A DNA stretch of 64,000 bases from Streptomyces paludis. Lineage in GTDB: Bacteria; Actinomycetota; Actinomycetes; Streptomycetales; Streptomycetaceae. Numbering within the stretch: position 1 is the stretch's first letter; every line of letters begins with the position of its first letter. The translations under genes and the position numbers were made by a program. The stretch is taken from the NCBI RefSeq assembly GCF_003344965.1, contig NZ_CP031194.1:124001-188000 (forward strand), read 5' to 3'. The notes under the pieces were generated by a model. The model made no database searches and was not told where the DNA came from. It saw nothing but the letters and a program-made list of their open reading frames with translations. Positions 2,862 through 28,862 of this stretch are shown here, piece by piece.

Positions 2862-4521
2862 TGGCTTTCTCCATGAAACACCGGTGGTTGCCCAGCGCCG
2901 CCGCGTTGATCCCCTTCACCTTGGAGCCGCTGACCACGAGGTTGGTGGAGCAGGCCAGCATGGCGATCACCATGTACTCCTCCGCCCAGCGCCGCTGGAT
3001 CCTGGAGTAGGCGGCGGTGCGCTTCTTGCCGTCCGGCAGGTTCTTGGCCGCCACCAGCTCCGCGGCCAGGGTGGCGGCGCCGTCCAGGGTGTCCAGGCCG
3101 GTGATGGTGGAGCCGTAGAGACCGGCGGGGTTGGCCATGGAGCCGACCATGTTGTTGGGGTCGGGGACGTAGGAGTTGCGCTCCCAGATCATCAGGTCGT
3201 GGTAGTCGTCCTTGCCGTCGCTGAGCCGGCTGAAGTACGAGGCGGGGTCGACGGAGGTGGTCCGTACCTTGAAGCCGGCGTCCTCCAGGTTCTGCTTGAC
3301 GATCTGCGCGGCCTTGGGGTGCCAGGAGTCGCTGGCCGCCATGAGGCCCAGCTCGCGGCCCTCCGCGCCCGCCTCCTTCAGCAGCTTCCTGGCCTGCGCG
3401 AGGTTCTTCGTGCTCAGGTCGGCGAGGCCGGGGTCGTAGCCGTTCTGGGCGGGCGGGATCGCGTAGCCCTTGGGTTCGCTGCCGACGCCGAAGAACGCCT
3501 GCTGGACGATCGTCCTGCGGTCGATGGCCAGATTGATGGCCTTGCGCACCTTCAGCTCGGGTATGCGCCGGGCGTCGATCATCAGGATGGCGTCGAAGCC
3601 CTCCGGGGTTTCGTGGACGGTCACCGACGGGTCGGCCTTGAGCTGTGCGACGGCGGAGTAGGGGGTGAACTGGGTGGCGGACACATCGCCGCTGAGCAGG
3701 GAGCTGACGATGGCCGAGGGGTCCTGGACCTGACGCAGGACCAGCCGGTCGATCGGCGGCCGGCCGAGCCGGAATCCGTCGAACGCCGTGAGGGTGATGG
3801 ACTGGCCGGAGGTGGCCGAGGAGAACTGAAAGGGCCCGGTGCCGACGAGGTGCTTGCCGATGTCGGCGCCGTACTTGTCGAGGGCGGCCTTGGAGATGAC
3901 GCGCCCGCCGATGTCGGAGAGCTGGGCGAGGACGGTGCGGTCGGGTGCCTTGAGCACCAGCTTGACGGTGAGGTCGTCCTCGGCGGTCAGGGCGGCGACG
4001 TTCCCGCCGAGGGAGGCCAGCGGTCTGGAGGCGCCCTTGGGGAGGGTCTTGTCCTCCGGGTCGAACTGCCGGCCGAGGGAGGCCAGGACATCGGCGGAGG
4101 ACAGTGTCGTACCGTCGTGGAACTTCACGCCCTTGCGGAGGGTGAAGGTGTAGGTGAGCTGGTCGTCGGAGACCTCCCAGCTCTCGGCCAGGTCCGGCGC
4201 GGGCTCGTTGGACTCGAAGGAAATGAAGGTGAGACCGCGGCAGACGCAGTCCACCGCCATCCAGTCCCCCAGGGTCGTGTAGAAGGCGGGGTCGTTGACC
4301 GCGCTGGTGGAGTCGATCGCGAGGGTCAGGGTGCCGCCCTTGCCGGATCCACCGCCGGACTTCGCGGACCCGTCGTCGGCCACACCGCAGGCGGTGAGCA
4401 GAGGGGTCAGTCCGAAGCCCACTCCGACGCCGAGGACACCGGCGCCGCGCAGCATGGAGCGGCGGGACAGCCGTGCTCCGGCCGGGCGGAGTGCGGGCGA
4501 TCCCTGCGACTGATCCGGCAT
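2854..4521 (-). CDS. ABC transporter substrate-binding lipoprotein, family 5
   Basis: A 555-residue extracytoplasmic binding protein. The N-terminus has a twin-arginine-like SRRSMLRG, a hydrophobic stretch and a lipobox-like LLTAC at about residue 50, so it is probably Tat-exported and lipid-anchored. The rest is SBP_bac_5, including DQLTYTFTLRKGVKFHDGT and an AINLAIDRRTI segment. It should capture the solute for the downstream permeases. A good ribosome site (AAGGAGG) precedes the ATG at 4521. It is first in its operon, and a paired TTGGATCCAA operator lies 35-65 bp upstream, linking it to the GntR regulator at 6809. Family 5 proteins bind peptides, opines, nickel and other solutes, so the ligand is open. 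Confidence 0.93.
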   Translation of the reverse strand: MPDQSQGSPALRPAGARLSRRSMLRGAGVLGVGVGFGLTPLLTACGVADDGSAKSGGGSGKGGTLTLAIDSTSAVNDPAFYTTLGDWMAVDCVCRGLTFISFESNEPAPDLAESWEVSDDQLTYTFTLRKGVKFHDGTTLSSADVLASLGRQFDPEDKTLPKGASRPLASLGGNVAALTAEDDLTVKLVLKAPDRTVLAQLSDIGGRVISKAALDKYGADIGKHLVGTGPFQFSSATSGQSITLTAFDGFRLGRPPIDRLVLRQVQDPSAIVSSLLSGDVSATQFTPYSAVAQLKADPSVTVHETPEGFDAILMIDARRIPELKVRKAINLAIDRRTIVQQAFFGVGSEPKGYAIPPAQNGYDPGLADLSTKNLAQARKLLKEAGAEGRELGLMAASDSWHPKAAQIVKQNLEDAGFKVRTTSVDPASYFSRLSDGKDDYHDLMIWERNSYVPDPNNMVGSMANPAGLYGSTITGLDTLDGAATLAAELVAAKNLPDGKKRTAAYSRIQRRWAEEYMVIAMLACSTNLVVSGSKVKGINAAALGNHRCFMEKASV

Positions 4522-4555
4522 GAGGGCCTCCTTGGGGCACCGTTCCTCTGAAGGA

Positions 4556-4586
4556 ATGGATCTAATCTTGCGTTGATTGGATCCAA
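4556..4586. promoter_or_regulatory. Paired GntR-type operator upstream of the importer operon
   Basis: A perfect 10-bp palindrome TTGGATCCAA lies at 4577-4586. A degenerate copy ATGGATCTAA lies at 4556-4565. The centres are 21 bp apart, about two helical turns. The same arrangement recurs at 6686-6716 and 14465-14496. The site is 35-65 bp upstream of the lipoprotein start, where it would overlap a promoter. FCD-type GntR proteins commonly bind such short dyads; assignment to the regulator at 6809 is inferred from repetition and proximity. Confidence 0.72.
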
Positions 4587-4704
4587 ATACATGCTGTCCG
4601 GCTCGCGCTTCCGCGCCATGTCCCGAACGTTACGAGCGTATGAAATCGGGATCTTGCATATTTTCTGCCGTGATGTGTTGACACATACGGCTTCTGACGC
4701 TTCG

Positions 4705-6651
4705 TCAACTCCCGCAGCATCCGTCGGCGGCGGTGGCCGACGGGTCGGGGATGTCCATGGCCGGGTTGCGGTCGAAGAAGCCGTCGGGTTCGAGGACCAG
4801 CCGCACCCGGTCGACCGGCATGACGGGCCACTGCTCGGGCCGGGGGAAGTGGTGTGTGCCCACGACCGGCCACAGCACCAGCTCCGCCCCGTCCAGCGAG
4901 CGGTCCTGACGCTGCCAGACCTGCACACCGTCCTCGCCGGGCTCCGCCTGGTTGGGGTACTGCCCGCCGACGTACCGCTCGGCGGCGTCGGACACCGTCG
5001 CCCACAGATGCTGGTGGACGAAGGGCGCCCGGCGGGCCATCACCGAGTCGGGCCGGGCGAAGGGCCGGGTGGTGTTCGGCAGCAGCAGCCGGTACGCGGT
5101 CGGCTCGCCGTAACGGTTCTCCTTGTCCGCGCTCTCCACCCGCCAGTGCCGGGACGTCGCCGGGTTCGTCCGGCGGGCCGCGCCCGCCTCCGACAGCAGC
5201 GGGGTGCGCACCATACGGACGGCGTTGCCGTACGGGTCGTGGCGGGGGTCGTCCTCCGCCTCCGCGTTCTCCTCCACCAGCCGGTTGAGCGGACCGTCCA
5301 CGGCGACATCCAGCCGCAGCCCGAAGTAGTGCTGGTGGGTGGGGGTCTGGACGTGACGGGAGACCACCCGGCCGTGCCGCACCTCCGCGCCCTCCTCGAT
5401 GCCGGAGGCCGACAGCATGCCCGTCAGCTTGATCTCCAGCTCGATACGGCCGTCCTGGTAGAGCGACCAGTAGAAGCCGTAGTCGTAGTTGGCGACCGTC
5501 TGGAAGCTGGAGATGATCAGCCGCCGCGAGCGGCGCACCTCGCTCACCCCGCGGCGCAGATCGTTGTGCTTCCAGAGGATGCCGTCGTCCTCCTCGTGCA
5601 TACAGATCGCCTGGGCTATCTCCTGGGCGTCCCCGTCGCCCCCCAGACAGGCCGCGTCGAAGTAGTGGATGACGCCCAGGCAGTCGCAGCCGAGCGCGAG
5701 CGAGTTGGTCAGCGGACCGGCGCCGTACTCGCCCCAGTCGAAGAAGTTCTTGCGGAACTGCGTGGAACTCGGGTCGAGGTAGGGCACGTACATCTCGTTG
5801 CAGGCGGCCCGCTTGAGCACCGAGCGCCCCAGGAAGTTCAGGTCGTACAGCACCAGGCCCTCGCGGTGGGTGAAGCCCACCCGCAGCTCCCAGCCCTGCC
5901 AGCGCACCCGGTGCCCGTCGACGGTGAAGCTCGGCCCCTCGGGCTGCACCACCTCCAGCGGCTTCAGCCCCTCCCGGTCCGGCCCGAATCCGCCGGCCGA
6001 CAGCGGCCCCGGCTCCTCGGAGACCGGGACGACACCGTGGTCCTCGACCTCCAGCACCTCCATCGTCGCCATGTCGATGAGCGGGATGACACCCTGCACC
6101 GGGCGCACATAGGCGTTGTCGTCCTCCCGCACCCGGTGCCAGACCGAACCCCAGGTGATCCTGCGGTCCTTGTACTTCTCCGGGACGAAACCGCCGATGG
6201 ACTCCGCGTCGATCACCGTCAGCGACACGTCGTGGATGCCCCGCCGGGCCAGCGCCTCGCGGAAGAGCGGGCTCTCCCGGCACGCCCGCGCCGCCGCGCG
6301 CGCCTCCGTCGAGGTGATGCCGGGCCGCCGGATGTCCACCGGCCGCCACGCGGTACAGCGCGGCTCGGCCCCCAGGCGTACGTCGATCTCCCAGGCGCCG
6401 GGCAGATCGTGGTCCATCGCGACCAGTCCGACCAGCACCTCGCCCGCGCCGTGCCGGCCGGCCATCACCTCACGGGCGAAGGTCTCGTCCAGCGTCGCGC
6501 CCCAGAACCTGGTGCGCTCGCCGAGCCGTCCGTCGGCCCGGGCCACGGCGACCGCCGCGTCGATCTCGGCGGGAGACAGCGGGTCGAGGGGATGGGTGCG
6601 CTCCCGCCGCGCGAGGACACGGGTGCTGACACTTCCGGGGGAGTTGTTCAT
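4705..6651 (-). CDS. Copper-containing primary amine oxidase (TPQ enzyme)
   Basis: A 648-residue copper amine oxidase that oxidises primary amines to aldehydes with release of ammonia and hydrogen peroxide. Visible active-site parts are the catalytic-base Asp305 in FFDWGEYG, the topaquinone precursor Tyr389 in VANYDYGFYW, the copper ligands His439 and His441 in THQHYFGLRLD, and a third ligand His near residue 600 in THHFPRPEQW. There is no signal peptide, so it is probably cytoplasmic, as in arthrobacterial enzymes. The start has GGAG 7 bases upstream. It is divergent from the GntR gene and shares its operator region. The aldehyde could feed the aldehyde dehydrogenase at 10050. Confidence 0.95.
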   Translation of the reverse strand: MNNSPGSVSTRVLARRERTHPLDPLSPAEIDAAVAVARADGRLGERTRFWGATLDETFAREVMAGRHGAGEVLVGLVAMDHDLPGAWEIDVRLGAEPRCTAWRPVDIRRPGITSTEARAAARACRESPLFREALARRGIHDVSLTVIDAESIGGFVPEKYKDRRITWGSVWHRVREDDNAYVRPVQGVIPLIDMATMEVLEVEDHGVVPVSEEPGPLSAGGFGPDREGLKPLEVVQPEGPSFTVDGHRVRWQGWELRVGFTHREGLVLYDLNFLGRSVLKRAACNEMYVPYLDPSSTQFRKNFFDWGEYGAGPLTNSLALGCDCLGVIHYFDAACLGGDGDAQEIAQAICMHEEDDGILWKHNDLRRGVSEVRRSRRLIISSFQTVANYDYGFYWSLYQDGRIELEIKLTGMLSASGIEEGAEVRHGRVVSRHVQTPTHQHYFGLRLDVAVDGPLNRLVEENAEAEDDPRHDPYGNAVRMVRTPLLSEAGAARRTNPATSRHWRVESADKENRYGEPTAYRLLLPNTTRPFARPDSVMARRAPFVHQHLWATVSDAAERYVGGQYPNQAEPGEDGVQVWQRQDRSLDGAELVLWPVVGTHHFPRPEQWPVMPVDRVRLVLEPDGFFDRNPAMDIPDPSATAADGCCGS

Positions 6652-6685
6652 GGGGTGCTCCGCTCGCTTGCACAGATCGGAATTC

Positions 6686-6716
6686 TTGGATCCTGATTGC
6701 TATAGAATGGATACAT
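6686..6716. promoter_or_regulatory. Paired GntR-type operator between the amine oxidase and regulator genes
   Basis: TTGGATCCTG lies at 6686-6695 and ATGGATACAT at 6707-6716. Each is a near-match to the TTGGATCCAA palindrome, and the centres are 21 bp apart, as in the other two copies. The site lies 35-65 bp upstream of the amine oxidase start and about 95-120 bp upstream of the regulator start, so one site could control both divergent genes, including autoregulation. Both copies are imperfect here, which might mean weaker binding. Confidence 0.68.
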
Positions 6717-6808
6717 AAAGCGGTACGTGGCCCGTCCCGGGCGCCCGCTCCGCGGCATCCCGCCCCGGCCACCGCCGGCCCTCGCCTCCCCGACCCCACG
6801 GAGACCCC

Positions 6809-7543
6809 ATGGACACCGCCCCGCCCGCCGCCGCGGACTCCACCGCGGACTCCCCCGCGGGAAAGGGCAAGGCGCTCGTCGACGACACCGCCGCCGCGAT
6901 CCGCGCGCGGATCCTCTCCGGCGAGATCCCCATCGGGGCCCAGCTGCGCCAGGCCGAACTCGCGGGCGCGCTCGGGGTGAGCCGTACTCCCGTACGGGAG
7001 GCGCTGCGGCAGCTCCAGGCGGGCGGTCTCATCGAGGTGCTGCCCAACCGCGGCGCCGTGGTCCGGGTCCCCTCCCCCTGGGAGGTCCGCGAGGCGTACG
7101 AGATCCGCGCCGAACTCGAAGGGCTCGCCTGTGTACGGGCGGTCCGCGCGATCACCCCCGCCATCCTGCGGGAGCTGCGCGAGGCCAACGAGACGGTGCG
7201 CGCGGTCAGCGGCGGCGGCACGCCGGGCGAGGGCGCCTCGCCCTCCACCGCGGCGAACGACTGCTTCCACACCCTCATCCACACCGTCGCCGGCAACCAG
7301 CGTCTCGCCCGCGCCATCAAGGACGTCAACGAGGCGTTTCCGCGCAATGTCTCCGCCCTCGTCCTGCACGACAACCCCCGCCACCGCGAGGACAACATCC
7401 GTGAGCACGAGCGCATCGTCGAGGCGCTCGCCGCGGAGGACGCCGAGCGGGCGCGCGCCGAGATGAAGGCCCATGTGACCAGCGCGGGCGAGCAGTTGGC
7501 CCGCTGGTACGAGCAGCGGTCGGCCACCGTCTTCCGGGGCTGA
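6809..7543 (+). CDS. GntR-family transcriptional regulator, FCD (FadR) subfamily
   Basis: A 244-residue one-component regulator. The winged-helix GntR domain occupies about residues 25-95, with the recognition region QAELAGALGVSRTPVREALRQL and the wing LIEVLPNRGAVV. The C-terminal all-helical FCD ligand domain (about 100-235) has the expected metal- or ligand-binding histidines in DCFHTLIHTV and in HERIVEAL. The ATG at 6809 was chosen for the domain start and the GGAGA about 10 bases upstream. It is divergent from the amine oxidase. The repeated paired operator at three promoters makes it the likely local regulator, responding to an amine or carboxylate intermediate. Confidence 0.9.
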   Translation: MDTAPPAAADSTADSPAGKGKALVDDTAAAIRARILSGEIPIGAQLRQAELAGALGVSRTPVREALRQLQAGGLIEVLPNRGAVVRVPSPWEVREAYEIRAELEGLACVRAVRAITPAILRELREANETVRAVSGGGTPGEGASPSTAANDCFHTLIHTVAGNQRLARAIKDVNEAFPRNVSALVLHDNPRHREDNIREHERIVEALAAEDAERARAEMKAHVTSAGEQLARWYEQRSATVFRG

Positions 7544-16122: not shown

Positions 16123-16394
16123 AGTTCCTCACCAACCTGTCGTGCATACGATTTCCCGGCACCACGGCCGCGGGCCCCGTTCCGGCGGGGTCATACCCGT
16201 CTCCTTTATGACGCCTGAAACGCGCCGGCGCCAGAGCGGTCAGCGCTTATCACCCGTACGGGACAACGGATGCCACGGCTCCGGCCGCGCACGCGCTTAA
16301 ACGCACCTTTCGCGAGTTTCGTGCCATCCCACTATCGTGTGAGGCAAGAGCGGAAATCCGTACATGTTTCACCATTCAACGGAGGTGTTCCCTC

Positions 16395-16592
16395 ATGACC
16401 GCGATGACCCTTGGCACGGAGCGAATGGACAACGCGTTCGACCTCGATGTGCGGGAGGAAACCGGCAGCGCGGCATCGGCCGACCGTCACCTGTCCACAC
16501 ACGCCTCCGCCCGTCACCTCTCCACGCACGCCGCCGCGCGGAACCTCTCCACCCACGCCGCCGCACGGGGTCTGTCGACCCACGCCCGGTAG
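16395..16592 (+). CDS. RiPP precursor peptide, FxLD-type leader with four cysteine-free LSTHA repeats
   Basis: A 65-residue peptide with a strong GGAGGT eight bases before its ATG. Residues 15-20 are FDLDVR, the leader motif of FxLD-family LanB substrates. From residue 32 to the end, a 9-residue unit xLSTHAxAR is repeated four times (starts 32, 41, 50, 59; the last is cut after LSTHAR). Each repeat has adjacent Ser and Thr followed by His. There is no cysteine in the whole peptide, so no lanthionine can form. The LanB gene begins 6 bp downstream. Expected product: a peptide with dehydroalanine/dehydrobutyrine pairs, perhaps crosslinked through His or left linear. The leader/core boundary is probably near residues 25-31. 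Confidence 0.8.
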   Translation: MTAMTLGTERMDNAFDLDVREETGSAASADRHLSTHASARHLSTHAAARNLSTHAAARGLSTHAR

Positions 16593-16598
16593 CGCCGG

Positions 16599-19500
16599 AT
16601 GCCCGAAGCCCCGTTGTTCCGCTGCTCCGGAGCGGGGCTGTTGCGGGCACCCGTTCATCCCGTGACGCGTGCCGATGAGGTGCGCTGGGACGCGGACTCT
16701 CCGGAGGAGGACGAGAGCGGCCGGCTGGCCGAGGCGGTGAGCCGGCTGGCCCGTCCGCGGCCGGTGGCCGAAGCCATCGCCGTGGCATCGCCGTCATTGG
16801 CGCGGACCTTGGCACAGACCTTGGCCCAGACCGCCGGAGACACCGACAAGGAGCCGGCCGCGCTGCGGCGCGCGCTGCGAGCACTGGCCGGCTACCGGCT
16901 GCGGATGGCGTCGCGGGAGACACCGTTCGGGCTGATGTCGGGGGTGGCACCGGTGCGGTTCGGTGACGACGCGCAAGCAGTAGCCGCGCAGGAAGTAGCC
17001 GCGCAAGGTGCGAACGCGCAAGAAGTGAAGGTCCGTTGGGGTGACGCGCACCGGCGTGCGGTACGACCCGACCGCGCGTGGCTGACCGCGCTGGTGACCG
17101 AGTGGGAGCAGCGCCCGGAGGTGCTGCGGTGGCTGCGGGTCGTGGCAAACGGTCTGTGTTTCGTGCGCGACGGGAGAGTCGTGCTTCCCTACCTGCCGCA
17201 CTCCGCTCCGGGCGGATCCGCCGAGGCGCCGGTGCGGGAGGTGAGCGTCCGCCGCACCGACGCGGTCGCGCTGGTCATGGAGCAAGCTGATACGCCGGTG
17301 CTCTGCGGTGAACTGGCCCGGCGGCTGGGCGCCGCCTTCCCCGCGGCACCCCCCGGATCTGCGGAGGGAATGCTGGTTCGGCTTGTGGCCAAGGGGTTTC
17401 TGCTCTCCGAGGCACATCCGCCGCTGGAGGCCGCCGATCCGCTGGACCATCTGCTGAGCGCCCTGGCGGCGGTGCCGCCGGAGGATCTGCCGGAACTGCC
17501 GGAGCTGCGCGCGATCCGGGTCGCGCTGGGTGCGTACGCCGCGCTTCCCCTGGGTGCGGGCCTGACGGCGCTGACGGAGGTCAGCGAGCGGATGCGCGGC
17601 CTGCGCGCCGCGGATCAGCCCGTACACGTGGATCTGGCGCTCGACGCCGAGGCGCGGCTGCCGGGCGCCGTGGCCGAAGAGGCCGCCCGGGCCGCCGGCT
17701 TGCTGTGGCGGCTGTCGCCGCCGGAGCCCGGCCCCGCCCATCTCCGCGAATATCACGCGGAGTTCCTCGAACGGTACGGAGTCGGGCGGCCGGTCCCCGT
17801 GAGGGAACTCCTCGATCCGGACATCGGGCTGGGCGCGCCGGCGGGCTACCGCTGCCCGCCCGGCCCGCGTCCCGAGCCGGCCGAGGACCGCCGGGACACC
17901 GCGCGCGACGAGGTGCTGGCCGCACTGGCCCAGCGGGCGCTGCTCGCCGGGGAACGCGAGATCCTGCTGAGCGACGACCATCCGGCGGTGGCCCGCCTGG
18001 CCCACGACGGGGGAAGGCCGCCCTTGGGGATGGACCTGTGCGCCCACCTGCTGGCCGATACCCCGGAAGCCCTGGCGGAAGGGCGTTTCCGGCTCGTACT
18101 GAGCAGCCACTCCGGCCGGGCCGGGGCGATGCTCGGACGTTTCGCCCACCTGCTCCCGGAGGACATGCGGGCCTCGCTCACCGAACTCGCCCGGGATCCG
18201 GGGCCGTCGGACGCGGACGCGGACGCGGACGCGGACGTGCTCAACGCTCAGGTCAGCTTCCGGACCGGCCGCGCCCGCGCGGCGAACATCGCGCAGGCGC
18301 CGCGGTTGCTGGAGTACCGGCTGCCGGTGGGCACCTTCGCCGACCGGGGCGATCCGGCCGTGCTGGACCTGGCCCGCCTCGCTGTCACCGCCACCGCGGA
18401 GCGGCTGCTGCTGGTCGAGACCCGGACCGGGCGCCGGGTCCGGCCCGCGGTCTTCCACCTGCTCGACCCGGAGTGGGATCTCCCCAACGCGGCACGGCTG
18501 TTGTGCGACCTGACCACCAGCGGCGTACGCGGCTGGCGCGGCTGGAGCTGGGGGGCCGCGGAGGCGCTGCCGTATCTGCCGAGGGTCCGTTACGGGCGTA
18601 CCGTGCTCGCGCCGGCCCGCTGGCGGCCCGACGACACCCTCCGCGATCGGAACACTCCCCGCGACACGTGGACGCGCGCGGTCGCGGCCTGGCGCGACAC
18701 CTGGCACGTGCCCCGGCGCGTCCGCGTGGGCTCGGCCGACCGTCACATCGAACTGGATCTGGACCTCCCCGCGCATCTGGACCTGCTGCGCCACGAACTG
18801 GGCCACGGACCGGGGACCTTCGTACAGGAACTTCCCACCGCCGCCGGATGCGGTGACGGATGGCTGGCCGGACCGGACGGAGTCCACCGCGGCGAGATCG
18901 TCTTCCCGCTCCTGGCCCGGACGGCTGCCACCTCCACCACCGGGCCGCGTGCGGGCGTCTCCACGACCGGGCCACGCGCGCCCGGTCACCCTGTTGTGAC
19001 CGGCCTGCCTGTTGTGACCGGCCGGCCACAACAGATCCGTCAGGGCCGGCGCGAACACCTGCCCGGCGGCGAGTGGCTCCACGCCTCGCTCTACTGCCTC
19101 CCCGCCCGTCAGAACGAGGTACTGACAACGCACCTCCCGGCCCTGCTGGAGACGCTTCCACCGGAGGTCGACCGCTGGTTCTTCGTACGTTACGCGGACA
19201 GCCACGACCACCTCCGGCTGCGCTGGCACGGCCCCGCCCATCTGCTCACCGGCCGGCTCCTGCCCCAGGTGCACGCCTTCGCCACCGCCCTGCGCGACGC
19301 CGGACTGACCCGGCGCCTGGTCCTGGACACCTACGCCCCGGAGATCGAACGCTACGGAGGCCCCCGGGCCATGGCCGCGGCCGAACGGGTCTTCCACACG
19401 GACAGCCTCGCCGTCCTGGAAACACTGCGTCTGGCCCGTACCGGCACACTCACCGTCGACCCGCTGCCGCTCGCGGCGGCCGGCCATATGGCGCTCACCC

Positions 19501-19949
19501 ACGCCTTCTTCACCGGATACGCCCCGCGGACCGCCGAAGACTCCCCCGATCCCCCCGGGCTGCGCTGGCTCCTGGAGACCTTCCCCAAGGACGAAGCCGC
19601 TCACCGCGGCTTCCGGCGTACCCGCCAGGAGGCTCTCGCCACCGTGAATCCCTACACGGCCGGGAGCTTCCCGTCCGGCATCACCGGCTCAACGGCGCTG
19701 CGCCGGGCATGGGCCGCCCGTACCGAGGCAGCCGTCGCCTACGGCAGTGTGCTGCGGGAACTCGGCACCCGTTCGGAGGCGCCGCCCACCGAAGCGCTGG
19801 CATCCCTGCTCCACATGCATCACAACCGCCTCATCGGCGCCAACCCCCTTACGGAGCAAGGCTCCTACGCCGTGGCGCGCGGCGCAGCCCAGGCACACGA
19901 GGACCGCCGGCGCGCCTCCCGGGCAGCGAGCCCCGAAGCCACGGGATGA
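16599..19949 (+). CDS. Full-length LanB-type Ser/Thr dehydratase with SpaB_C elimination domain
   Basis: A 1,116-residue class I lanthipeptide dehydratase. It should glutamylate Ser/Thr of the precursor with Glu-tRNA and then eliminate glutamate. The glutamylation domain (about 10-750) has the motif SRETPFGLMSGV, matching the Arg-x-Thr active-site segment. The elimination domain (about 810-1105) shows WLHASLYC, FFVRYADSHDHLRLRWHG, the ERYGG...DS segment and LLHMHHNRLIGANP, so its usual residues seem present. A six-base microsatellite at 18210-18236 encodes alternating Asp-Ala. The ATG is 6 bp after the precursor stop and has no clear ribosome site, suggesting coupling. No LanC lies nearby. 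Confidence 0.93.
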   Translation: MPEAPLFRCSGAGLLRAPVHPVTRADEVRWDADSPEEDESGRLAEAVSRLARPRPVAEAIAVASPSLARTLAQTLAQTAGDTDKEPAALRRALRALAGYRLRMASRETPFGLMSGVAPVRFGDDAQAVAAQEVAAQGANAQEVKVRWGDAHRRAVRPDRAWLTALVTEWEQRPEVLRWLRVVANGLCFVRDGRVVLPYLPHSAPGGSAEAPVREVSVRRTDAVALVMEQADTPVLCGELARRLGAAFPAAPPGSAEGMLVRLVAKGFLLSEAHPPLEAADPLDHLLSALAAVPPEDLPELPELRAIRVALGAYAALPLGAGLTALTEVSERMRGLRAADQPVHVDLALDAEARLPGAVAEEAARAAGLLWRLSPPEPGPAHLREYHAEFLERYGVGRPVPVRELLDPDIGLGAPAGYRCPPGPRPEPAEDRRDTARDEVLAALAQRALLAGEREILLSDDHPAVARLAHDGGRPPLGMDLCAHLLADTPEALAEGRFRLVLSSHSGRAGAMLGRFAHLLPEDMRASLTELARDPGPSDADADADADVLNAQVSFRTGRARAANIAQAPRLLEYRLPVGTFADRGDPAVLDLARLAVTATAERLLLVETRTGRRVRPAVFHLLDPEWDLPNAARLLCDLTTSGVRGWRGWSWGAAEALPYLPRVRYGRTVLAPARWRPDDTLRDRNTPRDTWTRAVAAWRDTWHVPRRVRVGSADRHIELDLDLPAHLDLLRHELGHGPGTFVQELPTAAGCGDGWLAGPDGVHRGEIVFPLLARTAATSTTGPRAGVSTTGPRAPGHPVVTGLPVVTGRPQQIRQGRREHLPGGEWLHASLYCLPARQNEVLTTHLPALLETLPPEVDRWFFVRYADSHDHLRLRWHGPAHLLTGRLLPQVHAFATALRDAGLTRRLVLDTYAPEIERYGGPRAMAAAERVFHTDSLAVLETLRLARTGTLTVDPLPLAAAGHMALTHAFFTGYAPRTAEDSPDPPGLRWLLETFPKDEAAHRGFRRTRQEALATVNPYTAGSFPSGITGSTALRRAWAARTEAAVAYGSVLRELGTRSEAPPTEALASLLHMHHNRLIGANPLTEQGSYAVARGAAQAHEDRRRASRAASPEATG

Positions 19950-20041
19950 CGAGCCCTCCACCTATCGTTACGGCGGAGGCACTTGGCGACGGAGCCGACC
20001 TGGACGAGCTGCTGGCCGCCCGTCGCCGGCTGCTCGGCTGA
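19946..20041 (+). CDS. Small ORF overlapping the LanB stop (possibly the 5' part of a frameshifted gene)
   Basis: The ATG overlaps the LanB TGA as ATGA, typical of a coupled downstream gene. It encodes 31 residues, MTSPPPIVTAEALGDGADLD then ELLAARRRLLG, and stops at 20041. The acidic/leucine-rich helix looks protein-like. The next reading frame (19983-20270) has another protein-like stretch just after this stop, so the two may be parts of one gene broken by a frameshift or a sequencing error. Function unknown. Confidence 0.4.
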   Translation: MTSPPPIVTAEALGDGADLDELLAARRRLLG

Positions 20042-20270
20042 ACCCCGTTCGGTCGCCGCGGTGCGGGCGGATCCGGCACCGGTCCCGTACGAGGTGCAGT
20101 TCCTGATCGCGGTCACCGCGTACGCGGCCCATGTCGCCCCGCCGCGGCCCGTGTTCCTCTCCAAGCCTCACCGCGTCCCCGCCCGAGCAGCCCCAGCGGC
20201 CCCAGCGTCCCAGGCGGCCCACGTCACCCAGGCCGCCCCCGTCGCTCCAACCGTCCGAGGCCGTCCGTGA
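19983..20270 (+). CDS. Small ORF upstream of the HTTM gene (possibly the 3' part of a frameshifted gene)
   Basis: The frame is open from a TTG at 19983 to a TGA at 20270, which overlaps the GTG start of the HTTM gene as GTGA. The middle (about 20050-20170), VPYEVQFLIAVTAYAAHVAP, looks like a real hydrophobic segment; the Ala/Pro/Thr-rich end does not. No good ribosome site precedes the TTG. It may be the continuation, in another frame, of the ORF at 19946. No family recognised. Confidence 0.35.
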   Translation: MATEPTWTSCWPPVAGCSAEPRSVAAVRADPAPVPYEVQFLIAVTAYAAHVAPPRPVFLSKPHRVPARAAPAAPASQAAHVTQAAPVAPTVRGRP

Positions 20271-21052
20271 CGCTCGCCGCCGGCGAGGCGCTGCGCGCCG
20301 TCGAGGTGCTGGCCGCCACCGGCATGCTGATCACTTCCGCCGAGTTCCTGGGCCGGCCGGCGCTTCTCGGGCGCACCTCGCTGGCCAGCTGGGACATTCT
20401 CCGGCTGCGCCATCGCCGCGGTCCCCGCCGGGACCGTCTGCTGGCCCACCCCGGCATCCTCGCCGTGCTCGCCGGGAGAGCCGCGGCCTCGGCGGCATTG
20501 ATCCCGTGGCCGCTCCCCGCGCCCGCGCACGCCCTCGCGCTGGGCACGGTCGTCCTGACCTCGATCACGCTCCAGTCGCGAGGGCCTTACGGGGGCGAGG
20601 GCTCGGACCAGGTGCTGCTCCTGGTCTTCACCGCGCTCGCGCTGGCCGCGCTGCATCCCCATGCCACCACGATGCGCCTGACCCTGTACTTCCTCGCGCT
20701 CCAGTCCGCCCTGGCGTACTTCACCTCAGGGATCTACAAGGTGGCGTCTCCCCCATGGCGCAGCGGCAGCGCCCTCAGCGGCGTCCTGGGCACCCGATGC
20801 TTCGGAAACCGGCGGCTGGCCGCCCTGGCCACCGCGCACACCGCGGCCACCGCCTGGACCTCCCGGGGTGTCGGCGTCTTCGAGGCCGCCTTCCCCCTCG
20901 TGCTGCTCACCCCGCCGGCGGCACTGCCCTTCTTCCTGGCCTGCGGAGTCCTCTTCCACCTGACCTGCGCCGTGGCGATGGGGCTGAACGTCTTCCTCTG
21001 GGCCTTCACGGCCTCGTACCCGGCTCTCGCCTTCATGGTTCTCTCCCGTTGA
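20267..21052 (+). CDS. HTTM/SdpB-like integral membrane protein
   Basis: A 261-residue protein with about six hydrophobic segments. The signature LQSALAYFTSGIYKVASPPW followed by RSG is typical of HTTM-domain proteins (related to the membrane part of vitamin K-dependent gamma-carboxylase and to SdpB of the sporulation-delaying-protein system). It lacks the soluble carboxylase lumenal domain. The GTG start overlaps the previous small frame as GTGA. Position after precursor and LanB suggests a role in maturation, export or self-protection. SdpB-like proteins are known next to antimicrobial peptide genes; the role here is inference. Confidence 0.75.
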   Translation: MTLAAGEALRAVEVLAATGMLITSAEFLGRPALLGRTSLASWDILRLRHRRGPRRDRLLAHPGILAVLAGRAAASAALIPWPLPAPAHALALGTVVLTSITLQSRGPYGGEGSDQVLLLVFTALALAALHPHATTMRLTLYFLALQSALAYFTSGIYKVASPPWRSGSALSGVLGTRCFGNRRLAALATAHTAATAWTSRGVGVFEAAFPLVLLTPPAALPFFLACGVLFHLTCAVAMGLNVFLWAFTASYPALAFMVLSR

Positions 21053-21156
21053 CGCCTCGCCACGACGGCGTGCCCTGACGGGCGGATCGTCGTTGAGAGG
21101 GCGTACGTCCCCGGCCGTCCGGCGCGGGGCGTGATCGCGGCAGTGAGGAGCGACTG

Positions 21157-21471
21157 GTGAGCGAGTGCGTTCAGGAGCACGAGGACGGAAGCGGCACCCG
21201 GCAGTTGGGCAGGCGCGCCGCCGCTGTGGGGGTGGCGCTGGGGGCTGCCCTGGCGCCGGCCGGAGCGGCGCACGCCAGTGTGATCGGCGTCGGGAACGCG
21301 GTGTTCGGCAATACGTGCGTCACCCAGGGCGGTACGCAGGCGGCGGGCGGCACCGCGGCCGGGAGCGGCGCGGTGAGCGCGAACCTGGCGCAGCTGCCGC
21401 TCTCCCTGCCGCGCAACCACTGCGGCAGCAGCGGCATCGTCTGCACCGCGGTGTTCAGGGCCAGTGTGTAG
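21157..21471 (+). CDS. Small secreted protein resembling a rearranged chaplin
   Basis: A 104-residue protein starting at GTG 21157 with GAGGAG 5-10 bases upstream. A twin-Arg-containing, Ala-rich signal peptide ends near AGAAHA|SV (about residue 41). The mature part has VIGVGNAVFGNTC, like the end of a chaplin domain (VIGLLNPAFGNTC), then a Gly/Ala/Thr linker, then SGAVSANLAQLPLSLPRNHC, like the start of a chaplin domain (SGNVVQVPVHVPVNVC). So the two halves appear in swapped order. There are three mature Cys. It lies between the HTTM and TPR genes of the RiPP-like cluster. Surface assembly or a peptide role are both possible. Confidence 0.65.
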   Translation: MSECVQEHEDGSGTRQLGRRAAAVGVALGAALAPAGAAHASVIGVGNAVFGNTCVTQGGTQAAGGTAAGSGAVSANLAQLPLSLPRNHCGSSGIVCTAVFRASV

Positions 21472-22765
21472 CGCCGAATCGGTGACCGGTATGGCCGGCG
21501 TCTCTCTGGAGGACGCTCCCGTAAGGGAGTTGGCGTCCCTCAGCGGGCACGCCCTGCCGCTCGTACGGCAGTGGGTGGCGCGGCAGCCCCGGCACGGTGT
21601 GGCGCGGGCGCTGCTGGTTCTCGCGACGAGCGACGGGCTGAGCGACACGGAGCTGCGCGAGCAGCTCACGACCGCCCATCGCGACGCGCTGCGGGAGGAC
21701 GGGGGAAGCGCCGGTGAGCGGTCGGTGAGCCTCGTGTACGGCGTCTTCCTCCACACCCACCGCCAGTACCGGCTGACGGCCGAGCATCTCCTCACCCACT
21801 TCGAGCGGTGGCCCGGGGACGAGGTGGCGGGTCTGATGTTCGACGCCTTCCACGCGACCGGCGACCCGGCCCACCGGGCGCGGGGCGATGCCCTGGCCGA
21901 GCGGTTCCAGGCGCTGCGGGGCCGGGACAGCTGGGCCTGGACGAGCCGGCTGGCATGGGTACGGGCGGAGCAGGGCCGCGCGGCCGAGGCGCTGGACCTC
22001 GCCGGGCTGGCCCTGACCGCGCATCCCCGCTCCGGGCTCGCCGCACACGCCCGCGCGCACGCGGACCACGAACGGGGAGCCGGCCCGGCGGCCACCGCGT
22101 TCCTCGACCGGTGGCTGGCCGCCGACCCGGGCGCCGTCCAGTTCAGGCACCTCAACTGGCATGCCGCCCTCCAGTCCCTGGCCTGCGGGGACTTCACGGA
22201 TGCCCGCCGACGCGCCGACGAGGCCCTGGCCCGTGGCGATGTGGGCATGCGCGCGGCGACGAACTGGCGGCTGCTGCTCGCCGGACAGTCCCCGGCCCGC
22301 CGCTCCGACCCGTCCCACGTCAGGGAGTTGCTGGCCGGTCCCGGCGGGATGGCCGAGGTCTTCCACACCTTCAGCCTCGCCCTCGCGCTGGCCGTCGAGG
22401 CCGCCACCGACGAGCTGCACGCCCTGGCCCGCCGGGCGGCCCGGGACGAACGGCCCGACTTCCGGGAGGTGCTGGCCCCGGTCGTCCGGGCGCTGGCCGA
22501 GGTCACCGCGGGCCGCCCCGGGGCGGCGGTGGACCTGCTGACGGGCCTCGGCGAGCGGACGAAGCGGCTTGGCGGAGTCCGGGTGGAGCGCGAGATCGTG
22601 CAGGACACCCTCGCCCGCGCCCTGCTCGGCACGGGAGAACACACCCGCGCGGTCCATCTGCTGCACCACCGCACCTCCACCCGCCGCCACCACACCTACG
22701 AGGACCTTCTCCTCTCCCCCACCGCGCCCGCACCGCCCGCCCCTCCCACCGGAGTTGCCCCATGA
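21464..22765 (+). CDS. Tetratricopeptide-repeat protein (TTC38-like)
   Basis: Up to 433 residues from GTG 21464, which overlaps the previous stop; an ATG at 21491 is an alternative (424 residues). Neither has a strong ribosome site. The body is all-helical with TPR-like repeats, including HLNWHAALQSLACGDFTDAR, which matches the TTC38 pattern (WHxAL...GD...A). No signal peptide. TPR proteins usually act as scaffolds. The stop overlaps the sulfotransferase start as ATGA, so the two are probably made together and may act together on the peptide or another substrate. Confidence 0.7.
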   Translation: MCSAESVTGMAGVSLEDAPVRELASLSGHALPLVRQWVARQPRHGVARALLVLATSDGLSDTELREQLTTAHRDALREDGGSAGERSVSLVYGVFLHTHRQYRLTAEHLLTHFERWPGDEVAGLMFDAFHATGDPAHRARGDALAERFQALRGRDSWAWTSRLAWVRAEQGRAAEALDLAGLALTAHPRSGLAAHARAHADHERGAGPAATAFLDRWLAADPGAVQFRHLNWHAALQSLACGDFTDARRRADEALARGDVGMRAATNWRLLLAGQSPARRSDPSHVRELLAGPGGMAEVFHTFSLALALAVEAATDELHALARRAARDERPDFREVLAPVVRALAEVTAGRPGAAVDLLTGLGERTKRLGGVRVEREIVQDTLARALLGTGEHTRAVHLLHHRTSTRRHHTYEDLLLSPTAPAPPAPPTGVAP

Positions 22766-23751
22766 CCCCGCCGGCGCCCCACGTGATCGTCGTCTCGCCG
22801 CGCGGCAGCGGCACCCCGCTCCTGGCCGACGCCCTGACCCGGCTCGGCCACACCCCGTACGGCACGATGAGCGGCCACGCCCTTGAGGGCGCGGACCAGC
22901 CGGGACCGGGCGAGGTCCACGCGCTCCTGACCGCCGCGTACGGCGAGCAGCGAGCGGCCCGGCTCCTGCACCGTCAGGGACCGGAGTACGCGGAGCTGAC
23001 CGCCGCCTTCCACACGGCGGTGAGCGCCCTGTGGCGGACCTGGTGGACACGCCTCGGGCAGCCGGTCACCGGAGCCTCACCCGTCACCCCCGACGTGGAG
23101 AACCGGCTGACCCGCCTCCCCGACGCCGAACTGCGCCGGCTCCTGCCCGGCCGCGGCTGCTGGTACCTCAACAGCCTCGACCTCCAGCGCGCCGACGCCG
23201 GATTCCTCCGTACCTGGCACACCGAAGCACGGCCCCCGATCGTCTACCACCACCGCGATCTGCGCGACCGCGTGATCAGCCTGGTCCTCCTGCTGTCCGG
23301 TCCCGCGAGCCAGGCCGGCACCCTCCCCGACCAGCTCATCTACCGCGACATCCTCGGCGCGCTGCCCACCGTGGAGGACCGCGTCACCCTCGCCCTGACC
23401 GACCCGGACTTCCCCGGCATGGCCGAAACACGACGCTGCCAATGGCTGCTGCGCCACCCCGCCGTCACCGTAATCACCCACGAAGACCTCGCGGGCCCCG
23501 CCCACGGGGGTACGGCGGAAGCCCGCGAACGCGCCCTGACCCGACTCGCACAGGCCACCGGCCACCCGCCCACCACCGCCACCGAAGCCGCCACCACCGT
23601 CGGAGCCGCTGCCCAAGCCGGCTCCGACGATCTGGCAGTGGGTCTCTGGCACGAGTACTTCACCCCCGCGCACGAACGCCTCCTCAACCAACACCACGGC
23701 GACCTGCCGGCCCCGGGCGCCCGGTCACCTCACCGCGCCGCCGCGACCTGA
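22762..23751 (+). CDS. Sulfotransferase-like protein
   Basis: A 329-residue protein with a sulfotransferase-type fold. The 5'-phosphosulfate loop is IVVSPRGSGTPLLADAL (near residue 10) and the 3'-phosphate segment is VYHHRDLRDRVISLVLLL (near 160-178), with the Arg and Ser in the expected order. The loop reads PRGSGT instead of the commoner PRSGT/S, so PAPS binding should be tested. It starts at an ATG overlapping the TPR stop. Last gene of the RiPP-like run. It could sulfate the product of the cluster or another small molecule, or be a P-loop protein of unknown use. Confidence 0.72.
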   Translation: MTPPAPHVIVVSPRGSGTPLLADALTRLGHTPYGTMSGHALEGADQPGPGEVHALLTAAYGEQRAARLLHRQGPEYAELTAAFHTAVSALWRTWWTRLGQPVTGASPVTPDVENRLTRLPDAELRRLLPGRGCWYLNSLDLQRADAGFLRTWHTEARPPIVYHHRDLRDRVISLVLLLSGPASQAGTLPDQLIYRDILGALPTVEDRVTLALTDPDFPGMAETRRCQWLLRHPAVTVITHEDLAGPAHGGTAEARERALTRLAQATGHPPTTATEAATTVGAAAQAGSDDLAVGLWHEYFTPAHERLLNQHHGDLPAPGARSPHRAAAT

Positions 23752-23912: not shown

Positions 23913-24066
23913 TCAGCAGGACGTCGTGGGCCGCGCGGTATCGCCCTCGACACCCGCCCGCCGGCGCACCCTGTCTTCCGCCGCCTGCTGATGAGGTGGT
24001 CTCACGTGGCACGTTCCGCGAGCTTCTTGAGCAGCCCGGGCGGTGGCCATGGCAGGCTCATGCCGC
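23752..24066. other. Gap between sulfotransferase and DinB-like genes
   Basis: This 315-bp stretch holds most of the minus-strand remnant described at 23730-23912. I see no clear terminator, tRNA or promoter in the remainder. Confidence 0.5.
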
Positions 24067-24660
24067 ATGATCGATGAATTCGCGAAGAACAGCCTGCACG
24101 GGAGACTGCGGCGGGACCGCGAGGCGCTGCTCTGGAAACTCGACGGCTTGTCCGAGTACGACGCCCGCCGGCCTTTGACGGTGACCGGGACCAATCTTCT
24201 CGGCCTGGTCAAACACGTGGCCGGCGTCGAGGCCCGGTACTTCGGCGAGGTCTTCGACCGGCCGTCCCCGGAACCGCTGCCCCGGTGGCAGAACCACGAC
24301 GGCAGCGATCTGTGGGCGGCAGAGGACGAGACCCGCGATCAGATCGTCAAGTCCTACCGGCGCACGTGGGAACACTCGGACGCGACGATCGATGAACTTG
24401 CCCTCGATGCCCCCGGCCATGTGCCGTGGTGGCCGGATCCTTATTCGAACACGAACCTGTTCGCCGTCATGGTCCACGTCCTCGGCGAGACCAACCGGCA
24501 TGCCGGGCACGCCGACATCCTGCGTGAAGGCGTCGACGGGCGAACCGGGATGCGCCCCGAACACGAGACGCAGATCGATGAGGACGCCCGCACCGCCTAC
24601 TGCGCGAAGATCGAACAGGCCGCCAGATCGGCCGCAAGGCGGCGGGACCGCTCCGCGTGA
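24067..24660 (+). CDS. DinB superfamily protein (DUF664)
   Basis: A 197-residue four-helix-bundle protein. The DUF664 pattern includes LLGLVKHVAGVEARYFGE with a metal-ligand His and HVLGETNRHAGHADILRE, which supplies two more His ligands, so a metal site is likely. Family members are often thiol-dependent (mycothiol or bacillithiol) transferases, though DUF664 proteins are mostly uncharacterised. The ATG at 24067 was chosen because it begins the conserved MIDEFAKNSL; an ATG at 24043 is possible. Stands alone. Confidence 0.85.
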   Translation: MIDEFAKNSLHGRLRRDREALLWKLDGLSEYDARRPLTVTGTNLLGLVKHVAGVEARYFGEVFDRPSPEPLPRWQNHDGSDLWAAEDETRDQIVKSYRRTWEHSDATIDELALDAPGHVPWWPDPYSNTNLFAVMVHVLGETNRHAGHADILREGVDGRTGMRPEHETQIDEDARTAYCAKIEQAARSAARRRDRSA

Positions 24661-26738: not shown

Positions 26739-27731
26739 TTGAAGATGTTGATCAACGTGCCGGAGACCGTTGTCGCGGATGCGCTGCGGGGGATGGCGGC
26801 CGCGCATCCTCAGCTCACGGTCGATGTGGAGAACCGGGTGGTGGTACGGCGGGACGCGCCCGTCGCGGGGAAGGTGGGGCTGGTCTCCGGGGGCGGGTCG
26901 GGGCATGAGCCGTTGCACGGGGGGTTCGTGGGGCCGGGGATGCTGTCGGCGGCGTGTCCCGGGGAGGTGTTCACCTCGCCCGTACCCGATCAGATGGCGC
27001 GGGCCGCCGCGGCCGTGGACAGCGGGGCCGGGGTGCTGTTCATCGTCAAGAACTACACCGGTGACGTACTGAACTTCGACATGGCCGCCGAGCTGGCCGA
27101 GGACGAGGGCATCCAGATCGGAAAAGTCCTGGTCAATGATGATGTGGCGGTGACCGACAGCCTGTTCACGGCCGGGCGGCGCGGTACGGGCGCGACGCTG
27201 TTCGTGGAGAAGATGGCGGGGGCGGCGGCCGAGGAGGGGCTGCCGTTGGAGCGGGTCGAGGCGATCGGCCGGCGGGTGAACGAGAGCTCCCGCAGCTTCG
27301 GGGTCGCGCTGAGCGCCGTCACCACGCCCGCCAAGGGCAGCCCGACCTTTGATCTGCCCGCCGGTGAGCTGGAGCTGGGCATCGGGATCCACGGCGAGCC
27401 GGGGCGCGAGCGGCGGGCGATGATGACCTCCCGCGAGATCGCCGACTTCGCCGTGAACGCCGTACTCGACGACCTCCGGCCCTCGGGTCCGGTGATCGCG
27501 CTGGTCAACGGCATGGGCGGGACGCCGCTGCTGGAGCTGTACGGGTTCAGCGCCGAGGTGCAGCGGGTACTGGGCGAGCGGGGCGTCGCGGTGGCCCGTA
27601 CGCTCGTCGGCAACTACGTGACCTCGCTCGACATGGCGGGCTGCTCGGTGACCCTCTGCCAGGTCGACGAGGAGTTGCTGCGGCTCTGGGACGCGCCGGT
27701 GGAGACCGCCGCGCTCCGCTGGGGCCGGTAG
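26739..27731 (+). CDS. dhaK: PTS-dependent dihydroxyacetone kinase, DhaK subunit
   Basis: A 330-residue substrate-binding subunit. SGGGSGHEPLHGGF is the dihydroxyacetone loop and His218 in GIGIHGEPG forms the covalent hemiaminal with the substrate. Start TTG 26739 follows GGGAGG by 5 bases and gives MKMLINV, the usual actinobacterial start; ATG 26745 is an alternative. Operon with dhaL (73-bp gap) and dhaM. With DhaL-ADP it converts dihydroxyacetone to DHAP in the cytoplasm, feeding glycolysis. Confidence 0.96.
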   Translation: MKMLINVPETVVADALRGMAAAHPQLTVDVENRVVVRRDAPVAGKVGLVSGGGSGHEPLHGGFVGPGMLSAACPGEVFTSPVPDQMARAAAAVDSGAGVLFIVKNYTGDVLNFDMAAELAEDEGIQIGKVLVNDDVAVTDSLFTAGRRGTGATLFVEKMAGAAAEEGLPLERVEAIGRRVNESSRSFGVALSAVTTPAKGSPTFDLPAGELELGIGIHGEPGRERRAMMTSREIADFAVNAVLDDLRPSGPVIALVNGMGGTPLLELYGFSAEVQRVLGERGVAVARTLVGNYVTSLDMAGCSVTLCQVDEELLRLWDAPVETAALRWGR

Positions 27732-27804
27732 TCGACGGCAGGGCCCGTCAGGGCGTGGGCGGGCTGGATCGGGCCGGGAGGCCCGTTGGGGTGAGGAGAT
27801 CGCG

Positions 27805-28455
27805 ATGGACCGGATGCTCGACACGGCTTTCTTCGTCCGCTGGCTGACCGCCACCGCGGCCGCCGTGGAGCGGGACGCCGATCTGCTGACCGAGCTGGAC
27901 TCGGCCATCGGCGACGCGGACCACGGCAGCAATCTCCAGCGCGGTTTCAGGGCCGTCACGGCCAGTCTCGGCGAGGAGCCGCCGGCCACGCCCGGCGCCG
28001 CCCTGACGCTGGCGGGCCGGCGGCTGATCTCCACGGTGGGCGGCGCGTCCGGGCCGCTGTACGGGACGCTCCTGCGGCGTACGGGCAAGGCGCTGGGCGA
28101 CGCGGCCGAGGTGTCCCCCGCGCAGCTGGCCGAGGCGCTGCGCACCGGCGTCGCGGCGGTGGCGCAGCTCGGCGGGGCCAAGGCCGGGGACAAGACGATG
28201 CTGGACGCGCTGGAACCGGCGGTCGAGGCGCTCGGTTCCGCTCCGCCTCCGGACGGCTCCTCGTCGTTTCCGGCGGCGGCACGCGCGGCTGCCGAGGGCG
28301 CCCTCGCCACCGTGCCGCTCCAGGCGCACAAGGGCCGGGCGAGCTATCTGGGCGAACGGAGCATCGGGCACCAGGACCCGGGCGCGACCTCGTCGGCCCT
28401 GCTGATCGCCGCCCTCGCCGAAGCGGCGGAGGCAGACGGGGAGGTGAGCGAATGA
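27805..28455 (+). CDS. dhaL: Dihydroxyacetone kinase, ADP-binding subunit DhaL
   Basis: A 216-residue subunit. Metal/nucleotide-binding acids are in LDSAIGDADHGSN (Asp32, Asp37, Asp39). GGASGPLYG binds phosphate and GDKTMLDAL and GRASYLGERSIGHQDPGA complete the family pattern. GAGGAG precedes the ATG. The stop overlaps the dhaM start as ATGA. In this system ADP stays bound and is rephosphorylated by DhaM, rather than exchanging with ATP. Confidence 0.96.
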   Translation: MDRMLDTAFFVRWLTATAAAVERDADLLTELDSAIGDADHGSNLQRGFRAVTASLGEEPPATPGAALTLAGRRLISTVGGASGPLYGTLLRRTGKALGDAAEVSPAQLAEALRTGVAAVAQLGGAKAGDKTMLDALEPAVEALGSAPPPDGSSSFPAAARAAAEGALATVPLQAHKGRASYLGERSIGHQDPGATSSALLIAALAEAAEADGEVSE

Positions 28456-28862
28456 GCATCGAAGCGCCGGTCGGCATCGTCCTCGTGTCGCACAGCGGCC
28501 CGGTCGCCACGGCCGTCGCCGCGCTGGCGCAGGGGTTGGCGGGCGGCGGTGGCACCGCGCCCGTCGCGGCGGCCGGCGGCACCCCGGACGGCGGTCTCGG
28601 TACGAGTTCCGAGCTGATCGCGGCCGCGGCGGCCTCGGTGGACCGGGGCGCGGGCGTGGCGATCCTCGTGGATCTCGGCAGCGCCGTGCTCACCGTCAAG
28701 GCGATGCTCGCCGAGGGCGACGAACTCCCGCCGGAGGCACGGCTCGTCGACGCGCCCTTCGTCGAGGGAGCGGTCGCCGCCCTGGTCACGGCCTCCGCGG
28801 GCGGGGACCTGGACGCGGTGGAGGCGGCGGCCTCGGAGGCGTATCAGTACCGCAAACAGTGA
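28452..28862 (+). CDS. dhaM: Dihydroxyacetone kinase phosphotransfer subunit DhaM (EIIA-like only)
   Basis: A 136-residue EIIA-mannose-like domain with the phospho-His14 in VLVSHSGPVA. Only this domain is present; the HPr and EI-like extensions of E. coli DhaM are missing, so general HPr must supply phosphate. DLGSAVLTVKAML is a conserved interior segment. Last gene of dhaKLM; the convergent M56 gene ends 16 bp away. Confidence 0.95.
   Translation: MSIEAPVGIVLVSHSGPVATAVAALAQGLAGGGGTAPVAAAGGTPDGGLGTSSELIAAAAASVDRGAGVAILVDLGSAVLTVKAMLAEGDELPPEARLVDAPFVEGAVAALVTASAGGDLDAVEAAASEAYQYRKQ

Follow-up and report, generated by a model that had tools for sequence, protein, structure and literature searches.

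The window, a stretch of 64,000 nucleotides from the genome of Streptomyces paludis, appears to contain a two-gene RiPP cassette, composed of a precursor peptide and a LanB, which has its origin in class I lanthipeptide systems of the FxLD type, operates with no lanthionine cyclase and gives a linear poly-dehydro product. The probability of this reading was put at roughly 0.55. Because the leader is of the FxLD type, the two-domain LanB is intact and both Cys and LanC are absent, the unit would probably yield a Ser/Thr-dehydrated, non-lanthionine product, as far as can be judged from the sequence.

Precursor peptide and LanB of the window

The first-pass annotation had described a 65-residue peptide with an FDLDV leader motif and a Cys-free core, and this was confirmed by translation of the open reading frame at 16395..16592 on the forward strand (MTAMTLGTERMDNAFDLDVREETGSAASADRHLSTHASARHLSTHAAARNLSTHAAARGLSTHAR). 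A ribosome-binding site, GGAGG (16381..16385, forward strand), lies 9 nt 5' of the ATG. The FDLDV motif occupies residues 15–19 (16437..16451, forward strand); it carries the F-x-L-D of the FxLD leader family, and FDLDV-type leaders precede related LanBs. The core had been read as a 9-residue unit repeated four times. LSTHA was indeed found four times, but the complete 9-mer is present only three times, as HLSTHASAR (16488..16514), HLSTHAAAR (16515..16541) and NLSTHAAAR (16542..16568), and the fourth copy is shortened to GLSTHAR (16569..16589; all on the forward strand).

When the peptide was shuffled, any 5-mer occurred two or more times in only 2,908 of 200,000 shuffles; the repetition of LSTHA is not a matter of chance. 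The GC3 of the precursor was 0.85. Among the LSTHA copies, 6 of 9 third codon positions were variable versus 3 of 18 first and second positions (one-sided Fisher p = 0.016, for a repeat unit defined post hoc, once it had already been seen). That the letters of LSTHA stayed constant while the silent sites drifted speaks for a translated and selected precursor.

The sole match of the precursor in the protein database was its own sequence. A search of 392 Streptomyces genomes returned its own copy and two weak matches (L002, L003), neither with an LSTHA-like word, and the exact LSTHA unit was not found elsewhere in these genomes or in the protein database. Without a close homologue, the case for use of this precursor consists of one sequence and a distant parallel, which counts against the cassette reading. 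NCBIfam NF038155 (FxLD) gave no match up to E 10, which is weak evidence because six of the seven relatives tested likewise fell under its cut-off.

The LanB gene (16599..19949, forward strand) starts 6 bp after the stop codon of the precursor and encodes 1116 aa. The earlier description of a full LanB with both active sites was upheld: Pfam matches to Lant_dehydr_N and Lant_dehydr_C were obtained (PF04738 5.4e-190, PF14028 1.1e-49), corresponding to the glutamylation and elimination domains, and the protein could be aligned with solved LanBs, e.g. 5ehk and NisB. Equivalents of all ten NisB positions checked (Y80, R83, R87, T89, D299, R464, R784, R786, R826 and H961) were present; D121 and R14 of NisB lie outside the mapped set. 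PEARLs are LanB-like enzymes that have no elimination domain. A PEARL-type use of the window LanB was ruled out by the Lant_dehydr_C match together with the equivalents of R784, R786, R826 and H961.

The LanB alignment contained 110 of 116 proteins, window included, after six with too short a match had been omitted; L116, L120 and L131, which repeat L005, L021 and L015, were left out here and in the precursor comparison below. The window LanB departs from the near-invariant columns at 1 of 47, and its LanC-bearing relatives L004 and L017 at 1 of 48 and 0 of 47, respectively. For NisB, the variants R786A, R826A and H961A are described as retaining glutamylation and losing elimination (PMC4979651), and R87, T89, D121, D299 and R464 are listed as positions whose change abolishes dehydration (PMC7296275). 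A second NisB study gives a milder effect for D299A, T89A and R784A, with Y80F and H961A inactive (PMC4341554).

Neighbourhood and boundary of the unit

It had been noted that no LanC, protease or ABC exporter follows the LanB, and the searches agreed. By tblastn of the 64-kb window with nine LanC proteins of relatives, no E below 0.36 was obtained, and no ABC transporter or protease family was found among the nine ORFs scanned at 15.4–24.7 kb. A 31-aa ORF (19946..20041, forward strand) overlaps the LanB stop by ATGA, which is the usual lanC start in most relatives inspected. By position it may be a LanC remnant, although it showed no detectable LanC similarity by tblastn.

Elsewhere, the S. 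paludis genome contains two further LanB-LanC pairs, at 1.07 and 4.88 Mb; the one at 1.07 Mb (L040) is of the ordinary FxLD kind, its precursor containing Cys and being accompanied by both LanB and LanC. Four matches to LANC_like domains were also found elsewhere in the genome. These matches, and a mycothiol-S-transferase-family gene at 24043–24660, would suit a scheme in which a small thiol (e.g. mycothiol), or an unlinked LanC with free thiols, caps the dehydro residues. However, genes of the mycothiol-S-transferase family are common in Streptomyces and no link was seen between this one and LanB loci, and capping was considered highly improbable.

Directly behind the LanB lies the 3' remnant (20009..20186, forward strand) of a ∼180-aa gene, the partner found in front of the HTTM gene in another genome, G066; it was recognised against L077, over 182 columns by blastn (70%) and over 36 aa by tblastn (56%). 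The HTTM/SdpB-like membrane protein that follows (20267..21052, forward strand; a weak SdpB match) is probably a leftover of this partner pair, outside the RiPP unit. The HTTM protein was detected in 45 of 343 genomes (E ≤ 1e-10, own included), and the HTTM/SdpB-like protein with the ∼180-aa partner gene in front is recurrent in Streptomyces (window 20009–21052; L077, L079, L081, L082). The partner gene gave no Pfam or NCBIfam match in the two cases examined. By its position only, it may be SdpA-like, the HTTM protein itself being a weak SdpB match.

The labels given to the downstream genes in the first-pass annotation held in part. The chaplin scored above its Pfam cut-off, but the SdpB and TPR matches (E 0.004 and 0.003) were far under theirs, and the sulfotransferase-like gene, whose label we take from recognised motifs, had no Pfam or NCBIfam match. 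For the TPR protein, 222 homologues were obtained at E ≤ 1e-10, with 67–77% identity among the 119 matches listed besides its own copy, and many of the homologues carry precomputed Pfam domains whose accessions we take to be of TPR type. The chaplin, TPR-like and sulfotransferase-like genes, which have overlapping frames (21157–23751), are found again in other Streptomyces as a complete or partial set (L053, L054, L077). Farther on, at 26739–28862, three adjacent genes resemble, by eye, a dihydroxyacetone kinase set (K, L and M subunits).

The proposal that these neighbours belong to the cluster was not supported. A chaplin-TPR-sulfotransferase-like block was found in G094 and a TPR-sulfotransferase-like pair in G019, and in neither genome did the 19 kb retrieved contain a LanB. 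In G066, the ∼180-aa gene stands directly before an HTTM gene 69% identical to that of the window, and a chaplin and a TPR gene follow ∼2.2 kb past the HTTM gene with no LanB there; the LanB of this genome (L122) is located elsewhere, away from HTTM-chaplin-TPR. As tailoring or export genes, the HTTM, chaplin, TPR and sulfotransferase-like genes were rejected on the ground of their occurrence in G094, G019 and G066 without an adjoining LanB. Given these LanB-free occurrences of the chaplin-TPR-sulfotransferase-like genes and an HTTM partner reduced to a 3' remnant, the listed downstream genes probably lie outside the cluster, and the unit would comprise the precursor and the LanB.

The truncated HTTM partner gene beside the unit indicates a local rearrangement, and exporter and protease are not linked; both observations speak against the cassette reading. 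LanC might have been lost in the same rearrangement that cut the partner gene, in which case the unit would be decaying or unused. Consistent with this are the reduction of the partner gene to its 3' end, the 31-aa ORF at the usual lanC start, a locus (L118) whose LanB is close to that of the window and which also is without LanC or a recognised precursor, and the location of the unit 0.14 Mb from the contig end, an arm position in a linear Streptomyces chromosome. Nevertheless, a Cys-free core, four repeats and mostly third-position changes would not be expected from neutral loss of LanC. The window LanB is open over 1116 codons with one near-invariant column off, comparable to LanC-bearing relatives, and the same LanC-less, Cys-free state is present in another LanB lineage. 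Decay of the unit was thus regarded as unlikely.

LanB loci with and without LanC in Streptomyces

A first LanB set was composed of 29 loci from public genomes, of which 28 were parsed (L030 was omitted as a fragment). A LanC-like ORF was present in all 28, in agreement with an independent motif scan, and a LanC profile was trained on 27 of them. In a broader survey, 392 same-genus genomes were searched with the C-terminal part of the window LanB. Matches were obtained in 78 genomes, with at least 88 loci outside the own genome, and those 88 were retrieved; since at most the best six candidates per genome were scored, LanBs may be missing from this number. LanC was found beside LanB in 81 of the 88 loci and was absent from the retrieved stretch in seven (L118, L122, L124, L135, L155, L182 and L205), absence being judged from ∼3.5 kb before to 6 kb behind the LanB, with some stretches ending at contig ends.

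A Cys-free precursor was recognised at three LanC-less loci only, namely the window, L122 and L124; four others of the seven were without one, and no precursor was recognised near L118 or L135. L118 (genome G175, 3638–6850) holds an intact LanB close to that of the window, and the reading behind its LanB stop (MTGATPGGGRTTIGAP...ALRSRAAAVVA) resembles a LanC N-terminus by eye, although tblastn with nine LanCs was negative. At L155 (genome G285), a YcaO-like neighbouring gene and, in front of the LanC-less LanB, a 34-aa peptide ending in RICYPPTW were seen by eye, and this locus is perhaps an azole-type system.

The precursor comparison covered 115 parsed loci and the window and gave 57 distinct candidates, the remaining loci having none recognised or a duplicate. 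All 54 distinct candidates beside LanC, among which chance ORFs may occur because they were picked by motif, contained at least one Cys; 52 had no more than one His after the motif, and a repeated 4-mer occurred in three. The three precursors at LanC-less loci, a small number of cases on which the contrast rests, were free of Cys and contained 3 to 6 His, with repeats of Ser/Thr and His. The L124 precursor was entered by hand because its YGLD escaped the search pattern. The window, L122 and L124 have in common a LanB that stands next to a precursor with an xDLDV leader and Cys-free repeats of Ser/Thr and His, in a neighbourhood without LanC; a LanB-only, Cys-free repeat type of RiPP is proposed on these features.

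The first-pass annotation had expected similar precursors beside LanC-less LanBs. Such precursors were found at L122 and L124, but their letters are different, the unit being MTSxTxHPM and not LSTHA. The L122 precursor (77 aa, starting MTNSPYDLDVRV) has a YDLDV leader and two MTSxTxHPM units, and that of L124 (97 aa, starting MTNDPYGLDVRV) has a YGLDV leader and three; both are Cys-free and lie immediately upstream of the LanB. The two LanBs share 78% identity with a dN/dS of 0.39, and the dN/dS of the precursors was 0.54. The L124 neighbours scanned were a carboxylesterase, an acetyltransferase, a 5'-nucleotidase and an ABC transporter, the last located 3.7 kb behind the LanB. Those of L122, where the stretch directly behind the LanB lay outside the annotation, were a beta-lactamase-fold protein, a cyclophilin and a glycosyl-hydrolase-like protein. 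No Pfam family was common to the four neighbours scanned at L124 and the three at L122.

A profile of the three precursors recovered ten more proteins (P0122–P0131), all Cys-free with two or three MTSxTxHPM-type units; they are hypothetical where named and are known here from protein sequences alone, without gene surroundings. Beyond G066, G133 and the window genome, no new clear member was found in 249 family-level, 199 G066-related and 119 order-level genomes or in a plasmid set. Weak matches to the L124 precursor or the profile were L157–L159 in the family-level genomes and L211 in the order-level ones.

In a quick tree of 30 chosen LanBs, the window LanB fell in a supported set with L004, L005, L017, L118, L119 and L121, all of which except L118 have LanC. 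The LanBs of L122 and L124 stood apart from it. Forcing the three LanC-less rows into one clade cost 40 log-likelihood units with an AU p value of 0.0116, a value that is optimistic because the three rows were named after the first tree and the composition of L124 was flagged. A single monophyletic LanC-less family is therefore disfavoured, and the LanC-less state may have arisen twice; on the tree, the LanC state requires a minimum of three changes. These results suggest separate origins or losses for the window and for L122 with L124.

Predicted product and relation to known systems

In the proposed mechanism, the FDLDV leader would be bound by the LanB, which would glutamylate the Ser/Thr of the core from Glu-tRNA and then eliminate the glutamate, giving up to nine Dha/Dhb (from five Ser and four Thr). 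LanB and LanC are stated to be able to act independently (PMC7296275). In the absence of a thiol and of a linked cyclase, the product would be linear, repetitive and poly-dehydro, and each repeat unit would retain a His next to dehydro residues. The repeats would probably provide one active or metal-binding unit in several copies, either cut apart or kept in one chain, and metal binding by the repeat His is possible. Cutting after Arg may also be possible in the window precursor; in the MTSxTxHPM family, the position of Arg behind the units is variable and the last unit has none. Export and leader removal would depend on unlinked genes.

Instead of staying free, the imidazole of each STH or TxHP unit might add to Dha/Dhb, through the LanB or an unlinked enzyme, to give histidinoalanine or histidinobutyrine. 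Each repeat contains a His, both in the three LanC-less precursors and in the ten homologues, whereas nearly all candidates on the LanC side (52/54) have at most one; histidinobutyrine is known from noursin (PMC10206099). In the account of noursin given there, however, the LanKC synthetase is required for imidazole to add to Dhb, the reaction not being spontaneous, and linear Dhb is described as resistant to beta-mercaptoethanol (PMC10206099). Addition to Dha is conceivable; no candidate cyclase is linked to the window unit. Such crosslinks were judged unlikely, and a linear, poly-dehydro, His-rich peptide is the most likely product predicted from the sequence.

Compared with FxLD class I lanthipeptides (NF038155), the window unit has the same FDLDV leader before a full-length LanB, and the LanB of S. 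catenulae (L004), which is accompanied by a Cys-containing FDLD precursor and LanC, is 55% identical to that of the window. It differs from them in having no Cys, no LanC, a tandem-repeat core and no NF038155 match. Of the features of a class I lanthipeptide, a LanB with glutamylation and elimination domains was found, whereas a LanC in the cluster and a Cys in the core for (methyl)lanthionine (65 aa without Cys) were not, so that the unit is by definition not a lanthipeptide. It is predicted to work like the first half of class I lanthipeptide synthesis.

The MTSxTxHPM systems resemble the window unit in their xDLDV-type leader, the absence of Cys and the repeats of Ser/Thr with His, and at L122 and L124 also in the adjacent LanB without LanC nearby. 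In contrast, their repeat letters are different, the spacing is ∼22 aa versus 9 in the window, and the LanBs are disfavoured as one clade. Noursin (class III) likewise combines Dhb and His in one RiPP, but is described as having a LanKC synthetase, a labionin with Cys and no tandem core (PMC10206099). Goadsporin and the thiopeptides share LanB-type dehydration with glutamyl-tRNA; as outlined in PMC10676384, they differ in that the YcaO azole enzymes work before the dehydratase, which is a split LanB, and neither feature was seen in the window.

No description of a LanC-less LanB with Cys-free repeats was recognised in the open-licence literature searched, which suggests that the small family behind the window unit is, as far as this search tells, undescribed. 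A large lanthipeptide mining study is reported to start from LanC domains (PMC7268733), and LanB-only systems would therefore be outside its view. It is conceivable, though we are inclined to doubt it, that class I dehydratases, perhaps twice in Streptomyces, dropped the cyclase and Cys together and took on Ser/Thr-His tandem cores, and that the recurring His marks new chemistry, in which LanB-made dehydro residues are closed by or paired with imidazole (as a crosslink or metal site) in a RiPP class of its own. Because Cys and LanC are jointly absent and His is in every repeat, the role of His is directly testable. With two genes and repeated Cys-free cores, such a system can be expressed easily and would reveal what LanB alone does, whether it makes linear poly-dehydro peptides or opens a route to histidine crosslinks. 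The units in other Streptomyces suggest an undescribed way of using a known enzyme, LanB.
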